A stretch of DNA of 48,092 nt from Clostridia bacterium. Its GTDB lineage: Bacteria > Bacillota > Clostridia > Oscillospirales > Acutalibacteraceae. The stretch lies in the NCBI GenBank assembly GCA_017513245.1, contig JAFXGK010000012.1, positions 1 through 48,092 of the forward strand, read 5' to 3'. How positions within the stretch are numbered: position 1 is the stretch's first letter; each line of letters starts with the position of its first letter. Under the pieces are notes generated by a model that saw only the letters and a program-made list of their open reading frames with translations, was not told where the DNA came from and searched no databases. The position numbers and the translations under genes were made by a program. This document shows, piece after piece, positions 27,463 to 48,092 of the stretch.

Positions 27463-27486
27463 AAAAATGCATAGTTGTAGAGTTTT

Positions 27487-27574
27487 ACTTCCTACGTCGG
27501 CATTACCCGCATCAGGTATTACGGGTCGAAACAGTAACGGTTTCCTCTCAGCCGGACTCAATCCAGCTCCCCAA
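27487..27574 (-). ncRNA. TPP riboswitch (thi-box)
   Basis: The minus strand shows the diagnostic parts: GGGGAGCTGG, then CTGAGAGG, a GACCCG... ACCTGATGCGGGTAATGC arm and CGACGTAGGAAG. It binds thiamine pyrophosphate and, with the terminator at 27430-27462, controls thiT. The transcript begins near 27573. Confidence 0.95.
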
Positions 27575-27579
27575 AAGAT

Positions 27580-27608
27580 ATTTTACTACTCGCAGTCGCC
27601 GTTGTCAA
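27580..27608 (-). promoter_or_regulatory. thiT promoter inside the 3' end of the yfhO-like gene
   Basis: Minus strand: TTGACA (27603-27608), 17 bases, TAAAAT (27580-27585). It overlaps the last codons of the yfhO-like gene, which runs the same way. Confidence 0.75.
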
Positions 27609-41701: not shown

Positions 41702-42235
41702 TTATTCTTCCATCTGTTTTCCGAGAAAACCGGCCGCAACCGTAACCAGCTTGATATCGGTTTCGGTGGGAGTGGCGGCGCTGTCGGTAGCCAGCAAAGC
41801 CACCGCGCCGGTTACGTCACCCGAGGCCAAAATCGGGGCCGCTACGCAGATTTTGCGGTCAACGCCGTCGAGGGCGGGATACGCCTCCTCAGTTGCGGTA
41901 AAGAGGCGGCGCGAGTTCATAATATCCTCAAGCGCGGGCGACACCCTGCGTTCGAGCACCTCGCGCTTGGGCAGTCCCGCGGCGGCAACGCAGTGGTCGC
42001 GGTCGCAGATTATAACGGCCAGCTGAGTGCCCTTAATAAGCGACTCGGCATACTGCGCCGCAAAGGACGACAGCTCGCCTATCGGCGAATATTTTTTAAA
42101 GATAACCTCCCCACCGGCATCGGTATAAATCTCCAGCGGATCCCCTTCGCGAATTCTCATCGTTCTTCTAATCTCTTTCGGGATAACAACACGACCAAGG
42201 TCGTCTATACGGCGTACAATACCTGTTGCTTTCAT
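41702..42235 (-). CDS. spoVT: Stage V sporulation protein T
   Basis: 177 residues. The N-terminal AbrB-type swapped-hairpin DNA-binding domain is IVRRIDDLGRVVIPKEIRRTM (residues 6-26 and on). The C-terminal GAF domain (about 55-177) has LAVIICDRDHCVAAAG and ICVAAPILASGDVTGAVALL. SpoVT modulates forespore sigma-G genes in Bacillus. The protein is intact; the start is preceded by AAGGAG inside a leader hairpin. Its 5' end is duplicated further right in the window. Confidence 0.92.
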   Translation of the reverse strand: MKATGIVRRIDDLGRVVIPKEIRRTMRIREGDPLEIYTDAGGEVIFKKYSPIGELSSFAAQYAESLIKGTQLAVIICDRDHCVAAAGLPKREVLERRVSPALEDIMNSRRLFTATEEAYPALDGVDRKICVAAPILASGDVTGAVALLATDSAATPTETDIKLVTVAAGFLGKQMEE

Positions 42236-42241
42236 ATATAA

Positions 42242-42295
42242 AAACTCCTTGCTTTACAAATTTGTACTGTTAGTATCTGTAAAACAAGGAGATTT
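42242..42295 (-). promoter_or_regulatory. SD-sequestering leader hairpin of spoVT
   Basis: On the minus strand, CTCCTTG and TTTACA pair with TGTAAA and CAAGGAG across a loop of about 20 bases, burying the Shine-Dalgarno AAGGAG. The same pairing is extended in the copy at 43580-43633. It could make spoVT translation depend on a trans factor or temperature. Structure by eye only. Confidence 0.55.
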
Positions 42296-42308
42296 ATACT
42301 TGTGTTAT

Positions 42309-43226
42309 TTAACCAATATTCGAAACTAATTTTCCTTCTGAATTCATATAAAGATAATATTTCAATTCTTCAAATCTATGTTTTTCTTGCCAATCTTTTT
42401 TATCAAAATAAGGCATTTCATTACCTATCAAACCAATAATATTCGTTATGTGACCTAAACCGCGCAGATTCTCAATATCTTTATGCAATTGACCGAATTC
42501 ATCAGTTCGTGCAAAATAATGTGTTGGTCTGAAACTATGATGTTTGTATATTTCAAAACTTATTTCATCACTATCGCAACCTTCATAGGCAAAAAAACCA
42601 TCTTCATCTATTCCTTTTTCAATACCTAAATCTTTGTCTTCTTCGCTATAATGCATATTTACGAAAGGAAAAGTTTCATCGTTGTTGATTGCTACATCAC
42701 AGAACTTTAAAAATATTTCAAAATTTTCACATGACAAGTCCGTTTTATCTGTCGCCTTAAAATATACTTTACTATTTATGAGCAAGTATTTTTCTTTAAT
42801 TTCTTTGCCATCTGCAACATTTGTATATTCTTTGATATTTATATTTAGACTTTCTGCACTAAAAAGAACTTGCCCCGTTTTATGCTTAAAAGTTGGTGTG
42901 TTTTTAGTAAAGCCATATTCCCGAAACTTTAAATTTTCATAATTGTTAAGTTTGTATTTTGTTCCAATGATTTCCCCTTCTTCATTTACATCATTTTCTA
43001 AACTCCAACCATAAACTTGGCATTCTTTTATTTCGTTATCATTGAAAACAAGCTCAGTATATGTAGGATACAAACTATTGTTCATAGAAAACCATTTCCC
43101 ATTAAGGCATTCCTGCATTTCTTCAATGCTTTCAAAAGCAATATTGTCTTCTGGTTTGCTTTCGCCACAACCAGCCAAACAGAAAAGCAAACATAAAACT
43201 AAAAGCAAAGAACAAAGTTTTTTCAT
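42309..43226 (-). CDS. AT-rich hypothetical lipoprotein
   Basis: 305 residues from ATG 43226 with GGGGAAAA. Signal MKKLCSLLLVLCLLFC and lipobox LAGC. The mature part (YPTYTELVFNDNEIKECQVYGW onward) has no motif I recognise. Base use is visibly more AT-rich than surrounding genes, which points to recent acquisition. It lies between two copies of the spoVT 5' end, with its own promoter and an operator-like palindrome. Confidence 0.7.
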   Translation of the reverse strand: MKKLCSLLLVLCLLFCLAGCGESKPEDNIAFESIEEMQECLNGKWFSMNNSLYPTYTELVFNDNEIKECQVYGWSLENDVNEEGEIIGTKYKLNNYENLKFREYGFTKNTPTFKHKTGQVLFSAESLNINIKEYTNVADGKEIKEKYLLINSKVYFKATDKTDLSCENFEIFLKFCDVAINNDETFPFVNMHYSEEDKDLGIEKGIDEDGFFAYEGCDSDEISFEIYKHHSFRPTHYFARTDEFGQLHKDIENLRGLGHITNIIGLIGNEMPYFDKKDWQEKHRFEELKYYLYMNSEGKLVSNIG

Positions 43227-43236
43227 TTTATTTTCC

Positions 43237-43262
43237 CCAATCATAATGGATTTTATGATTGG
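43237..43262. repeat. Perfect 10-base inverted repeat at the lipoprotein transcription start
   Basis: CCAATCATAA (43237-43246) and TTATGATTGG (43253-43262) with a 6-base loop, directly adjacent to the -10 box. It fits an operator or a 5' RNA hairpin. Confidence 0.55.
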
Positions 43263-43291
43263 ATTATACTTCAAAATACAAATTATTGCAA
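43263..43291 (-). promoter_or_regulatory. Promoter of the AT-rich lipoprotein gene
   Basis: Minus strand: TTGCAA (43286-43291), 17 bases, TATAAT (43263-43268). The -35 falls at the end of the broken spoVT copy. Confidence 0.7.
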
Positions 43292-43572
43292 TATCTCTTT
43301 ATATCTTTCCACCACACTATGTATTGCCCAATAAACCCTGTCGAACGGTGTCAATGTTATATGTGAGGGATCCCCCTCTCGAATTCTCATTGTTCTTCTA
43401 ATCTCTTTCGGAATAACCACACGACCAAGGTCGTCTATTCTTCTCACCTTTCCTCTTGCGGTGCCCGACTCTGCGCTCACTCCTATCGTGGCGCAATCGT
43501 CGACCGCGGCGCTTCCTTACGCTCGCTTCTTCTCACACTGTGAGCGCTCGCGACGTCACCTGTTGCTTTCAT
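43283..43572 (-). pseudogene. Truncated second spoVT copy with an inserted GC-rich segment
   Basis: The first five codons (MKATG) match spoVT, then about 110 bases of GC-rich insert follow, then the copy resumes at VRRIDDLGRVVIPKEIRRTM and IREGDP. It diverges at a GGATCC and stops after 26 foreign residues, so the GAF domain is missing. The insert carries a stop (TAG) after a 29-codon frame; a GTG frame (43480) then reads the AbrB part as a 65-residue protein. It may be a relic or a SpoVT N-domain competitor. Confidence 0.7.
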
Positions 43573-43579
43573 ATATACA
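43437..43579 (-). repeat. 143-bp repeat, copy A
   Basis: This block is the same as 47676-47818 at 141 of 143 positions. It includes the spoVT start codon region and a GC-rich insert with the palindrome CTCACACTGTGAG. A 10-base direct repeat TTCTTCTCAC (43438-43447, 43527-43536) brackets the insert, like a target-site duplication. Confidence 0.85.
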
Positions 43580-43633
43580 AAATCTCCTTGCTTTACAAAT
43601 TTGTACTGTTAGTATCTGTAAAACAAGGAGATT
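43580..43633 (-). promoter_or_regulatory. SD-sequestering hairpin, second copy
   Basis: AAATCTCCTTG / CAAGGAGATTT (11 pairs) plus TTTACA / TGTAAA, the duplicate of the spoVT leader hairpin. The stem is longer than in spoVT because the mismatch there is paired here. Confidence 0.6.
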
Positions 43634-43658
43634 TATACTGATTTAAAAAATAGATTTG

Positions 43659-44555
43659 CTACGCTTTTTTTACGATGATTTCGGTATGCTTTTGAATTTG
43701 CGCAATCCAGTTTTCAACCTGTTGTTCATCAGGCTGTTCAAAACTTTGAATCGCTTCCGGTTTGCCCAGCTTCATAGGTTTGTTGCGACCGAAAGAATGA
43801 TACGGTTCAACGTTTATTTCTAAAACGTTTTGCAAAGAATTTGCTATTTCTGCAATCCCTTGGAAATGCGCGTCATTGTCGTTCACTTTGGGTATGATAG
43901 GACATCTTAATATAATTTGGGCGCCGCTGTTGTCAAGCGCTTTTAAGTTTTCAAGTATTTGTGCATTGCCGGACCCCGTATATTTTTTGTGTTGTTCCTC
44001 ATCCGTTACCTTCCAATCGAAAAGGAAAATATCGGTAAGTTCCGCTATCTTCAAAACTTCTTCCTTTTTAGCGAAGCCGCAGGTTTCAACACAGGTATGT
44101 ATTCCGTTTTGTTTTGCCAACTTGAGAAGTTCGTACGCGAAATCAAATTGCATAAGCGGTTCGCCGCCGGATAAAGTCAGTCCGCCACCGGAATTATCGT
44201 AAAAAACTTTATCCTTCACGACTTCCGCCATAACTTCGCGTGCGCTAACCTCTTTTCCGACAAGTTCGATCGCGTTTGCGTAACATTCGCTCACACAGCA
44301 TCCGCAAGAAATACATTTTTCGCGTTCTACCCTATGCCCGTTTTCAAACCGATGCACCTTCTGCCGACAAGTCTCCGCACAACGACCGCAGGCAACACAT
44401 TTTTCCGTGTCAAAAAGCAACTCGCTTTTATTCAGATGTGCCTCGTAATTATGGCACCACTTACACCGCAGGGGGCAACCCTTGAAAAACACAGTGGTTC
44501 TGATGCCGGGGCCATCATTTATACAGAATTTTTGTATGTTAAAAACAATACCCAT
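43659..44555 (-). CDS. Glycyl-radical-enzyme activase (radical SAM)
   Basis: 298 residues. The radical-SAM cluster is CPLRCKWC (Cys27, 31, 34 with CxxxCxxC). It also has two ferredoxin-type 4-Cys motifs (Cys53, 56, 59, 63 and Cys81, 84, 87, 91), typical of activases other than the simple PflA. GGLTLSGGEPL is the AdoMet site. It makes the Gly radical on the preceding GRE, whose stop is 6 bases upstream. ATG 44555. Confidence 0.92.
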   Translation of the reverse strand: MGIVFNIQKFCINDGPGIRTTVFFKGCPLRCKWCHNYEAHLNKSELLFDTEKCVACGRCAETCRQKVHRFENGHRVEREKCISCGCCVSECYANAIELVGKEVSAREVMAEVVKDKVFYDNSGGGLTLSGGEPLMQFDFAYELLKLAKQNGIHTCVETCGFAKKEEVLKIAELTDIFLFDWKVTDEEQHKKYTGSGNAQILENLKALDNSGAQIILRCPIIPKVNDNDAHFQGIAEIANSLQNVLEINVEPYHSFGRNKPMKLGKPEAIQSFEQPDEQQVENWIAQIQKHTEIIVKKA

Positions 44556-44561
44556 TCTCTG

Positions 44562-46676
44562 CTAAACCAACCTCTCAGTCCGTTTTGCCGTTTCGATAAA
44601 TGCTCGGCGTTCGTCAAAGCTCAAATCGCCGAAACGCGCGCTGTATCCACCTATCCGCACGATAACGAACGGATACTTTTCGGGCTCTGCATGTGCTTTT
44701 TCTAAAAGCTCGATGTCTGCGCTGTTGACCTGTAGTTGCAATCCGCCCTGCTGAACATACGTGCGAATTAAAGCCTTGACCTTATCCCTCAAAGCCTTAT
44801 CCTTAAACCAGGCTGCATCAAAATATAAATCTATCGGCTGACCGCCGCTGAATTTATATTGTTCCAATGCCGCAGCGGAAAGCATGACGCTTGTATGCTC
44901 TATTTTCTGCAACGCCGAAGACGGGTTGGCGTTTTTGTTGACCGGTTCGCCTTTTTTGCGACCGTCTAACGTTGCGTAAAGATGGTCTCCATACCACATA
45001 TTCACAATAAGGGTATGAAGCGAAGGCAAGAACAAGCGGTTATCGTGGTTTATTGCTTTGCAGGCACGTGACACCATATCACAAACGCGATTACAGAGCG
45101 CATTTGTCTGCGGCTCGTTTGTGCCGTATTTTTCACATTTCGAAATATCGTGCAAAAGCTTTTCGTGCCCGTCAAAATTGTCCTTTGCGGCAACGATAAA
45201 GTCATTCAAAGTATATTTTCCTTTTTCAAACACAAGTTCCTTTATTGCCGATAATGCATCACAAGTGTTTATCAGACCCATCGTTTCGACCGTTACGGTA
45301 TTATAAGTTGCGCCGTTCGAGCGGTCCCGACGGTTTTGTATGCAGCCGTCTGTCAACGCCGAAAGAAGCGGGTCCGGGGTGTTGGCTTCTTGTTCAAGCG
45401 CTACCTGTTCATACGTTTCCCCGGCTATCGCTACGGTCTCGCAAAGATATTCATTATATTTCTGCAGCAGATGCTCGAAACTCTCAATATCCTCGGGAAC
45501 GGTTTTAAGCTCAAGTTCGATTTTTGCATTAAGCGGGTTGCCTTTGTTAATCGCAAGTTCCAACGGAAGGTGCGAATTGAATTTTATGCCCCACATATCG
45601 GCAAATTCTCGTCCTACTGCAAACAGTCCCATACAGCTGTTCACCGAATAACCTACTGCATCAGACTCCGTTACACCTCTGTATGACATAGCCTCTCGGC
45701 ACGGAATTTCACCGTAAAACGTTGGCTGGCCTATTTTGAACAAATTAAAATCAATAAGCGAATCAAAGACGTCCTCGGGAATATCCGGCGTTATCCGCAC
45801 GGCGAAAATCGGTGCGCGCAACGACATTTCTTTTTCGACTTCTATTAACAGTCTCGAAAGGTCGTTTATCATATCGCGACCATCCGCATCCATACCGCCG
45901 ATATTCATGGCACAGGCACCGTCTCCGTAAGAATCAAGAAGCACAAACAGATTCTTGAGTATTTCCTTAACCTCTTCTTTTGTGCCGCCGTCTTCTATAT
46001 GCTTTTTGTAAAACGGATATAAATATTGGTCGATTCGTCCGATTGATATACTCGCCCAAGACATCTCGGCTATGGGAATAAGCAAGTGCATAATCCAGAC
46101 CGACTGTACCGCCTCCAGAAAATTCCGAGCACCCGATTTCGGCACACGGCAAAGCGCGGTGTGGATTTTCTCAAGGCGTTTCTTTTGCTCTGGTTCTTTT
46201 GCATCCTTTATCTTTTCATAAACCGTAGCCGCAAAGCGTTCGGAAAATTGACAAACCGCATTCAGCGCAATTTTCATAGCCAAAAGGCAATCGTCGTCCG
46301 GGCTTTCGCAAAGTGCGGCATCAACCCGCTTCATATAATACTCCAGACCGTTTTGCACAATGGTTTCATAGTCGACACAAGTATGTGCTCTGTTAAAATC
46401 TATCTCGATTTTCAAAGCGCCATAAAGATGCCTAAGCCGTTGTCTTTGCTCGTCGTTTAATATGCTAACGTGCTCAAAATTTCTTTTTTCCGTTAGCGTA
46501 ATATCACAACCGTTTTCATATCCGTACCAGCCTGCAATATAATCGTTATCCGTTACCTTCAGCGGAAGTTGTTCCGTTATCAGTTTGAAAAGCGTCGCCT
46601 GACGGATATACGGAGAATATTCTTTGAGCTCGTCAAAATGTTTGTTTCTTATAAAATCAATTATGTCATATACCAT
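44562..46676 (-). CDS. Glycyl radical enzyme, uncharacterised subtype
   Basis: 704 residues from ATG 46676 with AAGGG; a GTG nine bases upstream lacks spacing. The C-terminal radical motif RIGGYSARF (Gly677) is intact. The active-site Cys is in VNSCMGLFAVG (Cys348). Diol dehydratases, choline lyase and arylacetate decarboxylases have Cys-x-Glu there; here the base is missing (C-M-G). The protein is shorter than most such lyases (about 780-850). So the reaction is unknown, possibly an anaerobic C-C or C-heteroatom cleavage. Regulated by the upstream IclR gene. Confidence 0.85.
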   Translation of the reverse strand: MVYDIIDFIRNKHFDELKEYSPYIRQATLFKLITEQLPLKVTDNDYIAGWYGYENGCDITLTEKRNFEHVSILNDEQRQRLRHLYGALKIEIDFNRAHTCVDYETIVQNGLEYYMKRVDAALCESPDDDCLLAMKIALNAVCQFSERFAATVYEKIKDAKEPEQKKRLEKIHTALCRVPKSGARNFLEAVQSVWIMHLLIPIAEMSWASISIGRIDQYLYPFYKKHIEDGGTKEEVKEILKNLFVLLDSYGDGACAMNIGGMDADGRDMINDLSRLLIEVEKEMSLRAPIFAVRITPDIPEDVFDSLIDFNLFKIGQPTFYGEIPCREAMSYRGVTESDAVGYSVNSCMGLFAVGREFADMWGIKFNSHLPLELAINKGNPLNAKIELELKTVPEDIESFEHLLQKYNEYLCETVAIAGETYEQVALEQEANTPDPLLSALTDGCIQNRRDRSNGATYNTVTVETMGLINTCDALSAIKELVFEKGKYTLNDFIVAAKDNFDGHEKLLHDISKCEKYGTNEPQTNALCNRVCDMVSRACKAINHDNRLFLPSLHTLIVNMWYGDHLYATLDGRKKGEPVNKNANPSSALQKIEHTSVMLSAAALEQYKFSGGQPIDLYFDAAWFKDKALRDKVKALIRTYVQQGGLQLQVNSADIELLEKAHAEPEKYPFVIVRIGGYSARFGDLSFDERRAFIETAKRTERLV

Positions 46677-46704
46677 ATCGTTCACCCTTAAAAATTACAT
46701 CAAT

Positions 46705-47454
46705 TTATTTGCCCAAGCGGGTTGAAATTGTCTTTGCCGCCTCTGTCACGTACGGCAACAAGTGACTTACAATCCGGTCAGATTGGCCGTTAAACGTGAA
46801 CGCCGAGCAGCCAACTGTCGCAATTACTTTACCTGTATAGTCATATATTGGAGCCGCAACGCATGTAATGCCGTTACCGAATTCTTCTTTGTCGGTTGCG
46901 TATCCATTTTTACGAATATTTTCAATTTCCGAGAGCATAGCCGTTTTTTCAGTAATTGTATTTTGAGTTGTTTTTTCAAAATTTCTCGAAGTATATTCCT
47001 CAATAAAACCATCATCCGCATATGATAACAGCACTTTGCCCGGTGCAGAGCAATATAGATCATATTCTCCGCCTACTCTACCTGCAACGCGAACATCCTT
47101 TACACCGTCAAGATGCTGAAGATATAACACCTTATCGTCTTTTAATATTCCAAGATATGTACTTTCACCTGTTTTGCTTAGTAAATCATATAGAACAGGA
47201 GCAGCAGCCGTATTCAAGGAAAATCTGGCAATCGGCTTTGAAGCCAAGCTAAACAAGGAAAGAGTTAAACTGTATTTTTGCTCATGACAGTATACCCAAC
47301 CCTCTTTTTCAAGCGTATTCAGTATTCTAAACACCATATTCTTATTTATTTCTGTACCGCGACTGATTTCAGAAATACCAACTTCCCGCTCGCTATCTGC
47401 GAGAAACGATATTATCTTAGTTGAAGCTTCAACAGATGGCGCAAAATTAGACAT
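46705..47454 (-). CDS. IclR family transcriptional regulator
   Basis: 249 residues. The N-terminal winged HTH reads EVGISEISRGTEINKNMVFRIL and NTLEKEGWVY. The C-terminal effector domain has APGKVLLSY and EFGNGITCVAAPIYDYTGKVI. Start ATG 47454 with AAGGAGAGG. It is the first gene of the GRE operon and probably senses the GRE substrate. A palindrome overlaps its own -10. Confidence 0.92.
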   Translation of the reverse strand: MSNFAPSVEASTKIISFLADSEREVGISEISRGTEINKNMVFRILNTLEKEGWVYCHEQKYSLTLSLFSLASKPIARFSLNTAAAPVLYDLLSKTGESTYLGILKDDKVLYLQHLDGVKDVRVAGRVGGEYDLYCSAPGKVLLSYADDGFIEEYTSRNFEKTTQNTITEKTAMLSEIENIRKNGYATDKEEFGNGITCVAAPIYDYTGKVIATVGCSAFTFNGQSDRIVSHLLPYVTEAAKTISTRLGK

Positions 47455-47494
47455 AATCGCCCTCTCCTTGTTATATATTTATTATGTTGTTATA

Positions 47495-47523
47495 ATTGTA
47501 TTACAATATTACACTTTTGTCAA
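47495..47523 (-). promoter_or_regulatory. GRE-operon promoter with IclR-like operator
   Basis: Minus strand: TTGACA (47518-47523), 17 bases, TACAAT (47495-47500). The palindrome ATTGTATTACAAT (47495-47507) covers the -10, and 8 of 10 bases match in wider arms. Autoregulation by the IclR protein is likely. Confidence 0.65.
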
Positions 47524-47675
47524 TGCCTATAAAAAAACAGCACCATCGGAATTAATTTTACTCCTTTGGTGCTATTTATGTTATACTTGCGCAAATTAAA
47601 CGCTATAAAAACCGATGAAAAGCATAGCTTTTATGCGGTTTTTCCGATTTTTGTCCTATTATACCATATTCCTCG
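47524..47675. other. Gene-free stretch with two hairpins
   Basis: No gene is seen between the GRE promoter and repeat copy B. AGCACCA (47539-47545) and TGGTGCT (47567-47573) with seven T after them on the minus strand look like a terminator for leftward transcription. AAAAACCG / CGGTTTTT with an inner AAAAGC / GCTTTT (47607-47643) is a second, larger hairpin. Confidence 0.5.
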
Positions 47676-47818
47676 ATTCTTCTCACCTTTCCTCTTGCGG
47701 TGCCCGACTCTGCGTTCACTCCTATCGTGGCGCAATCGTCGACCGCGGCGCTTCCTTACGCTCGCTTCTTCTCACACTGTGAGCGCTCGCGACGTCACCT
47801 GTTGCTTTAATATATACA
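47676..47818 (-). repeat. 143-bp repeat, copy B
   Basis: It matches 43437-43579 at 141 of 143 positions. The spoVT start codon ATG has become ATT, so no protein can start there. The remaining spoVT body is absent; sequence diverges directly after the GC-rich insert. A decayed version of the spoVT leader follows (47819-47920). Confidence 0.85.
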
Positions 47819-47839
47819 TTTCTCCTTTATCATCCAAAC

Positions 47840-47861
47840 GGGCGGATGTGGGCATCCGCCC
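47840..47861. repeat. GC-rich palindrome within a decayed spoVT leader
   Basis: GGGCGGATG / CATCCGCCC with a TGGG loop, flanked by CCTACA. It resembles the short interspersed palindromes frequent in Clostridia genomes and interrupts the third spoVT leader copy. Confidence 0.6.
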
Positions 47862-47925
47862 CTACACAAAATTCTCGAATCGTGATGTTAATATTTGTAA
47901 ATGGTGGAGATTTATACTGCCGCAA

Positions 47926-47954
47926 TTTACTTTTTAAATACTTTGTGATACAAT
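47926..47954 (+). promoter_or_regulatory. Promoter of metF
   Basis: TTTACT (47926-47931), 17 bases, TGA-TACAAT (-10 at 47949-47954, extended). Confidence 0.6.
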
Positions 47955-47981: not shown

Positions 47982-48092
47982 ATGAAAATCGCCGATCTTC
48001 TCAAAAAAAATACCCTGTCAATTTCTTTTGAGGTCTTTCCTCCAAAAACCGATTACAATTTTGAAAGCGTGCGCGCGGCCGTTGAGGAAATA
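47982..48092 (+). CDS. metF: Methylenetetrahydrofolate reductase, N-terminal part
   Basis: The first 37 codons only; the gene runs off the right edge. MKIADLLKKNTLSISFEVFPPK is the typical start of MetF, with the FEVFPPK strand that opens the TIM barrel. ATG 47982 has GAAAGGAG upstream. MetF reduces methylene-THF to methyl-THF for methionine synthesis or the Wood-Ljungdahl branch. Confidence 0.85.
   Translation, partial: MKIADLLKKNTLSISFEVFPPKTDYNFESVRAAVEEI

Follow-up and report, generated by a model that had tools for sequence, protein, structure and literature searches.

The 5' end of spoVT as a probable integration site for a family of small gene cassettes in Clostridia

Why would a single bacterial contig carry the beginning of one sporulation gene three times over, with other genes set between the repeats? 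The stretch examined here, referred to below as the window, is an entire contig (C16, 48,092 bp; GenBank JAFXGK010000012.1) of a Clostridia bacterium of the family Acutalibacteraceae, whose genome of 1.7 Mb is assembled in 51 contigs. Towards one end of the window, three copies of the 5' end of spoVT separate two cargo modules. An earlier note, made from the sequence alone, had read this as repeated insertion at the spoVT 5' end, either by site-specific islands or by repeat-mediated recombination. Comparison with other genomes now makes it quite probable that small gene cassettes of one family integrate at the 5' end of spoVT, and serial insertion confined to this site is well supported.

The anatomy of the copies is as first described, namely an intact gene, a truncated version interrupted by a GC-rich insert after codon 5, and a leader with the same insert and a dead start (Table 1); the lipoprotein-like gene and the operon of regulator, glycyl radical enzyme and activase were likewise placed correctly between them. 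Copy 2 breaks off at codon 34 and copy 3 at codon 10, each at a conserved junction of its own, so that neither is a mere shortened version of the other. At each junction the remnant of spoVT, which we call a stub, is fused to a tail of a kind (T2 and T1, respectively) that is found at other loci. Profiles built from other loci only, with 18 GGA-class tails for T1 and 9 tails for T2, match the window exactly at the stub boundaries and span model positions 1-88 and 1-85, so that the pattern in the window is more than chance. In the reversed window, the best match of the T1 profiles reached only E=0.14, and among the five matches listed for the T2 profile there was none to the reversed window.

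The insert itself provides a natural label. It is a dispersed repeat whose core (43453-43557) is 99% identical to 47692-47796 and about 80-81% identical to a stretch on contig C14 of the same genome, and over insert and start together copies 2 and 3 agree at 96% over 156 nt (47663-47818). The core recurs at 98% (105 nt) in the metagenome-assembled genome (MAG) RGIG6325 (locus L152), again within a spoVT-like start, and the SpoVT protein of that genome is 70% identical to the one in the window. The start marked by the 110-bp repeat is found behind three different leaders, one of them in this other MAG. Leaders similar to leader 1 precede both stubs and spoVT in other genomes; going by its motif, we take this leader to contain a SigG-like promoter, and a SigG-like motif was picked up in 75 of 148 stub leaders by a loose regular expression applied without a control.

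Table 1. Features of the spoVT region of the window, in order of position
Feature	Position	Strand	Evidence or remark
spoVT copy 1, intact	41702..42235	-	177-aa open reading frame (ORF); SpoVT_C E=4.9e-39
Leader 1, ahead of spoVT	42236..42301	-	Ribosome-binding site (RBS) AAGGAG; 42234-42300 matches leader 2 at 97% over 67 nt
Lipoprotein-like gene (MKKLCSLLLVLCLLFCLAGC...), cargo of module 2	42309..43226	-	ORF separating copy 1 from copy 2
T2 tail, left end of module 2, fused to spoVT codon 34	43285..43369	-	nhmmer E=2.3e-14
Copy 2, broken: spoVT codons about 7-34	43370..43449	-	Aligns with spoVT at 85% over 92 nt
GC-rich dispersed repeat, ~110 bp, within the start of copy 2	43450..43557	-	Core 43453-43557
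First codons of copy 2 (ATGAAAGCAACAGGT)	43558..43572	-	
Leader 2	43573..43639	-	97% over 67 nt to 42234-42300
Glycyl-radical enzyme activase (radical SAM), module 1	43659..44555	-	TIGR02494 340 bits (cut-off 174.35); Radical_SAM
Glycyl radical enzyme (PFL-like), module 1	44562..46685	-	PFL-like E=1.2e-96; Gly_radical E=4.3e-17
IclR-family regulator, module 1	46705..47454	-	IclR_C E=7.4e-42; HTH_IclR E=6.6e-9
T1 tail, left end of module 1, fused to spoVT codon 10	47587..47674	-	nhmmer E=6e-16
Copy 3: spoVT codons 1-10, interrupted by the ~110-bp repeat also seen in copy 2; start codon changed from ATG to ATT	47675..47811	-	
Leader 3	47812..47930	-	Second repeat insertion at 47840-47865
Upstream flank: 5' part of a metF-like gene that runs off the contig	47982..48092	+	

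Repeated insertion at the spoVT 5' end gains support from the recurrence of these junctions elsewhere. Typical stubs read through MKATGIVRRI and then switch from spoVT to a common tail, and a degenerate pattern for this switch matches at least 119 stretches in the genome collection and one viral-contig record (duplicates by sequence key are left out of all counts). Among sampled genomes of the order, the pattern occurs in 21 of 394, from 18 of 169 genera, and a reversed control pattern gave 0 matches in the same 394 genomes. The pattern fixes the amino acids MKATGIVRRI, so that decayed stubs such as copy 3 escape it, and the window genome was missed because its stub carries the insert; when stubs are instead found by their tail, 132 of 151 keep MKATGIVRRI, and some have lost the ATG. 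The T2 tail stands behind codon ~34 in the window, where the lipoprotein module follows it, and in L030, L032, L078, L119, L129, L158, L165, L273 and L274. Stubs and spoVT lie on one strand, and the same tails and leaders are present in different families, many independent joinings having taken place at one point. The spoVT body lies downstream of 40 of 136 stubs in the stored DNA and is absent for 96, of which 65 had less than 3 kb available. At six loci, three with T2 stubs and three with stub variants seen when 3 mismatches were allowed, a spoVT-like start was found upstream of the stub.

Relatives of the window genome show the same site in other states. In G001, of the same genus, a stub, a 741-aa ORF and an 85-aa ORF occupy the place of the window modules; the 741-aa ORF has no Pfam match, and its candidacy as a restriction enzyme was dropped for want of Pfam support. 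With the copy-2 region as query, second copies of leader and start were found near spoVT in several relatives. The empty sites that the earlier note had suggested looking for are common, with 30 distinct spoVT copies lacking a stub in the fetched stretch. Layouts vary between genomes instead of repeating one arrangement, and the modules did not turn up elsewhere without spoVT copies as far as the glycyl-radical enzyme was followed, a search of 40 genomes giving no match to it at E<=1e-100 in the 39 besides its own.

Taken from a stub to the next stub or to the spoVT start, 72 complete cassettes measure 659-5817 bp, and in 47 of them a single ORF, no more and no fewer, reaches 100 aa. Their 114 ORFs of this size, of which 70 run antisense and 44 sense relative to spoVT, include N-6 methylases (5), HTH_3 proteins (5), type I specificity subunits (4), AraC regulators (4), Fic proteins (3) and many singletons among the 25 commonest of 87 Pfam families, and PADLOC matches are chiefly to methylases and restriction enzymes. 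Where the first ORF is antisense, it stops at a median of 185 nt from the stub start (interquartile range 180-200, n=54). Several variants deserve a record of their own. In TATTAT-class tails (L084, L138, L151, L042) the usual tail is preceded by an extra hairpin module of ~85 bp, which gives the look of one tail set in front of another. Some stubs (L122, L125, L137, L151, L166, L175) stand behind a second type of leader (AAACCTGCATAAATGCTGGGTTTTTGGCACATTTTTAGAGTAGAGAAAAGGAGTAAATAT), which lacks the SigG-like motif and contains tail-like sequence. At L009 (G002:C155, same genus) the leader joins codon ~14 directly, the start being deleted between short GATTTGG repeats, which would point to a broken gene or to an error of assembly.

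Could the stub and its tail be a conserved small-RNA or upstream-ORF gene, retained for its own function while cargo arrives alongside by ordinary recombination? The TATAAT box and the often present terminator-like hairpin of the tails, together with the conservation of MKATGIVRRI, are what such a gene would display. It is nevertheless improbable, given that Rfam matched neither stubs nor tails, that RNAalifold returned an energy of 0 and thus no common fold over 38 tails, that the ATG is lost in some stubs, and that start and tail are in linkage equilibrium. This last point emerges from 120 stubs, the 16 GAC-type stubs being left out of the linkage and edge counts. Linkage across the junction averaged z 0.03 (51 column pairs, 3-20 nt apart), compared with 2.49 within the left side (40 pairs, synonymous sites) and 9.58 within the right or tail side (93 pairs). 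When the GAC-type stubs are added, some cross-junction linkage returns, as lineage would give. Fixed junctions with linkage equilibrium across them point to site-confined recombination.

The leaders behave in a corresponding manner. Array copies of spoVT have leaders that agree at up to 99%, while over the following 270 nt of the body the top pairs agree at 61-81%; pairs of leaders at 0.85 or above make up 8.1% among 32 array copies and are lacking among 30 array-less copies (starts with under 90-100 nt upstream were left out of the leader comparisons). Since leaders are alike while bodies diverge, it is the leader that moves, the body being left in place. The start between them obeys neither neighbour. 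In 135 pairs with near-identical tails the mismatch is.56 at +29 (.60 in random pairs) and.01 at +32 (.41 in random pairs), and in 55 pairs with near-identical leaders it is.00 at +8 (.26) and.40 at +11 (.55). Codons 4-10 thus behave as an exchange block, largely uncoupled from leader and tail alike.

These data also bear on a local origin, in which the spoVT 5' end was duplicated in tandem in one lineage and genes filled in later. The 97% likeness of leaders 1 and 2 in the window would suit it, as would the 6 of 41 stub-spoVT pairs with identical 30-nt starts. Within one array, however, stub and spoVT starts differ nearly as unrelated ones do (mean 3.98 against 5.07 differences of 30 nt), and different families have tails and leaders in common; simple local duplication is contradicted by these foreign tails and leaders and was rejected as very improbable. 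Target-site duplication as a rule was set aside as well, the starts on a cassette's two sides mostly differing; copies 2 and 3 of the window do share the marked start.

How, then, would a cassette enter? In the mechanism that we propose, a cassette would begin on the left with a tail of ~150 bp, which contains a TATAAT box and in most cases a terminator-like hairpin. One gene or a small number of genes would follow, and the right end would in its turn be a spoVT leader with promoter, RBS and ATGAAAGCAAC. Insertion would fall within codons 4-11 of spoVT, leaving the old promoter and the first ~10 codons upstream, fused to the tail as a stub, while the cassette leader and codons 4-10 would be joined in frame to the resident body, so that spoVT stays readable under a new promoter. 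Repetition would yield the order stub-cargo-stub-cargo-spoVT. In the window, module 1 would be a T1 cassette inserted at a start that bore the 110-bp repeat, and the same repeat would have broken copy 2; a second element, carrying the lipoprotein gene and the T2 junction at codon 34, would then have supplied a fresh leader and the first 34 codons, giving the intact copy 1. The order of these events is inferred from the layout. Circular intermediates may be involved, as may a recombinase acting in trans, perhaps one related to the enzyme of a serine-recombinase element that targets spoVT. Of the two routes offered by the earlier note, islands or recombination between repeats, the evidence narrows the choice towards recombination confined to a site; no recombinase was identified, and the ~20-bp start block fits no simple integrase scheme.

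Elements of the latter kind interrupt spoVT at the very codon used by the cassettes. The record IMGVR_UViG_2897530398_000009 has a stub at 1030, behind which come a DUF6017/HTH_36 protein and other genes; three large serine recombinases lie at 58,602-63,564, and the spoVT body resumes at codon 11, without a start codon, from about 63,734. A locus from an Oscillibacter MAG (L080/L275) packs a stub, a DUF6017 protein, a single serine recombinase and the split spoVT body into ~3 kb, its recombinase being 79% identical to the third of the former record. Because L273 has DUF3801 and a match to a type IV secretion coupling protein beside its stub, the element is called ICE-like, after integrative and conjugative elements (ICEs). 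As an observation in its own right, spoVT is split at codon 11 in Oscillospiraceae-type genomes (L062/L270/L271, L080/L275, L273, L274) by ICE-like elements, whose large serine recombinases number one or three. The T1 tails and the ICE left end have TATAATAGG..AAACACTGG..GTTTCGCTGATTTTGTCC in common, and by sequence the T1 tail resembles the left end of a conjugative-type element interrupting spoVT at the same codon. The left junction of the cassettes matches that of the ICE; the cassette right end is the spoVT start, unlike the ICE right end.

It is accordingly conceivable, at somewhat under an even chance, that the large serine recombinase of a helper ICE integrates the cassettes in trans at codon 10/11 (core GA), the cassettes being decayed cis-mobilizable relatives of the ICE and spoVT having later been restored by homologous recombination. 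The shared codon and left-end motifs, the recombinase genes adjoining the spoVT body, the compact L080 locus and the left boundary of exchange between +29 and +32, at GA, would all agree with this. What it leaves unaccounted for is the dissimilar right end and the uncoupling of start and leader about 20 bp away from GA, as crossover by such an enzyme at one dinucleotide would leave the two coupled. A possible though doubtful alternative is that cassette DNA pairs with spoVT over the shared start of ~30 bp only, the heteroduplex being resolved as a block so that the start comes from either parent and a dedicated recombinase is unnecessary. This would account for the uncoupling at both edges and for the 131-bp marked start moving as one block, and the exchange zone is indeed the sole stretch common to the cassette end and native spoVT. 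It leaves unexplained why unrelated tails have the same boundaries, and likewise the T2 junction at codon 34; moreover, 30 bp at ~80% identity is a very short substrate for RecA. The cassettes may be moved by a large serine recombinase in trans, by homology-confined recombination or by another recombinase.

Several observations weigh against cassette integration as proposed, beginning with the enzyme. No recombinase was found in the cassettes: among the ORFs of L042-L225, serine recombinases are confined to the ICE-type loci L080 and L160, with one tyrosine recombinase in an unrelated spot, and no ICEs in tandem were seen beside cassettes. In eight carriers (G012, G025, G029, G046, G054, G059, G124, G212) a search for relatives of the L080 recombinase at E<=1e-20 found none, which contradicts a large serine recombinase in every carrier and tells against the helper ICE as well; seven other carriers have distant relatives only, and G354 has one at 68%. 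The edges of the exchange block are imperfect, with mismatch at -14 to -1 of up to.27 in right-end pairs and partial linkage kept at sites 20, 24 and 26. Seven pairs of loci with the same cargo were aligned, and three of these keep both ends (L084/L151, L097/L130, L079/L128); one keeps the left tail only (L132/L181) and three the right leader only (L049/L151, L063/L076, L085/L126), so that cassette ends are exchanged as well. For spoVT itself, a Mantel test that compared the start with the body was uninformative, synonymous sites being saturated. Finally, the carriers include MAGs, many stubs lie at contig ends, and 14 of the stubs lacking a spoVT body had at least 6 kb available, at least two of them (L131 and L166) showing a spoVT start at the end of the stretch.

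Tyrosine recombinases were considered as well. An orphan enzyme (L243 family) was rejected as a requirement, since 10 of 26 carriers have it at E<1e-50, as do 6 of 34 non-carriers. A family of ~290-aa tyrosine recombinases with a HNLRHLFARTFY motif, seen in G042 (7 copies) and on contigs C46 and C2 of G000, is repeated in one genome and weakly enriched in carriers.

Among known systems, the tandem ssrA islands of Dehalococcoides and accretion of cis-mobilizable elements come closest. According to the published account, the ssrA islands stand serially at one gene with short direct target repeats between them and variable cargo, some having a serine recombinase and 15 no integration module (PMC3146451). 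The spoVT cassettes resemble them in their serial units, intervening target repeats and variable cargo, and differ in unit size, mostly 0.7-5.8 kb, and in supplying the 5' end of a protein gene with a complete promoter and start, where the islands have a 20-bp repeat at the 3' end of an RNA gene. In accretion, as described, decayed elements that lack a recombinase are lined up in tandem where an ICE related to them is integrated (PMC7563491), and here too an ICE-type element with a homologous left end occupies spoVT codon 10/11, the cassettes' own site. In contrast with the cis-mobilizable elements described there, no attL/attR pair was seen flanking a cassette, its right end being an intact spoVT start. 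Serine integrases exchange at a central dinucleotide between half-sites of 25-bp scale (PMC3783163), a scheme that fits the ICE and not the cassette right end. Skin, gin and SPbeta are site-specific elements in sporulation genes, much as the ICE-type elements interrupt spoVT, whereas the cassettes keep spoVT readable without excision. A literature search, with subscription papers and preprints outside its scope, found no report of spoVT as an insertion site.

Integrons string together short units, most of them of one gene, that share a short conserved end, and their cassettes are free of recombinase. The spoVT cassettes are alike in being mostly single-gene units without a recombinase, and unlike in having a promoter-like right end and a chromosomal coding sequence as their site. 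The integron-integrase model TIGR02249 gave nothing over its cut-off in 18 of 18 carriers, sub-cut-off matches appearing in all 18 and in all 14 control genomes, and RNAalifold found no consensus structure of attC type in the 38 GGG/GGA-class tails. GGG-class tails do fold singly, yet no consensus holds over the 38, and an attC-like hairpin was not used as evidence. The cassettes therefore cannot be counted as integrons, as neither integrase nor attC was found. It may still be suggested, tentatively and as the less likely outcome, that gut Clostridia possess an integron-like cassette system of their own, with the spoVT 5' end as attachment site, where single-gene cassettes are captured serially, each re-supplying the spoVT promoter and start, and where the ~20-bp target block passes between hosts by a mechanism outside the known recombinase classes.

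As regards the remaining genes of the window, copy 1 scores 216 bits with TIGR02851, under the cut-off of 235.9. The lipoprotein-like ORF has no Pfam or NCBIfam match at 0.001, and no NCBIfam model matches the glycyl radical enzyme above its cut-off. The upstream flank is presumably metF; its 37 aa gave no Pfam family match. Between two stubs at L145 (240-4105), MetH-like and MetF-like genes form a cassette, and by this precedent the metF-like flank may itself be one; the L145 cassette had been considered as a carrier of a glycyl-radical enzyme and was ruled out on the basis of these contents. Away from spoVT, the window has a thiamine pyrophosphate riboswitch (Rfam RF00059, 63.7 bits) at 27472-27583 (- strand).

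Should this view of the locus be correct, a developmental gene of uncultured gut Clostridia would be a docking site for cassette exchange, through which restriction, Fic, HTH, glycoside hydrolase and uncharacterised genes would spread between families. It would give the Clostridia an integron-like platform that accounts for part of their strain-specific cargo, and would pose a direct question, namely which recombinase swaps a coding block of ~20 bp. The spoVT loci would, moreover, be a place to mine for uncharacterised accessory genes.

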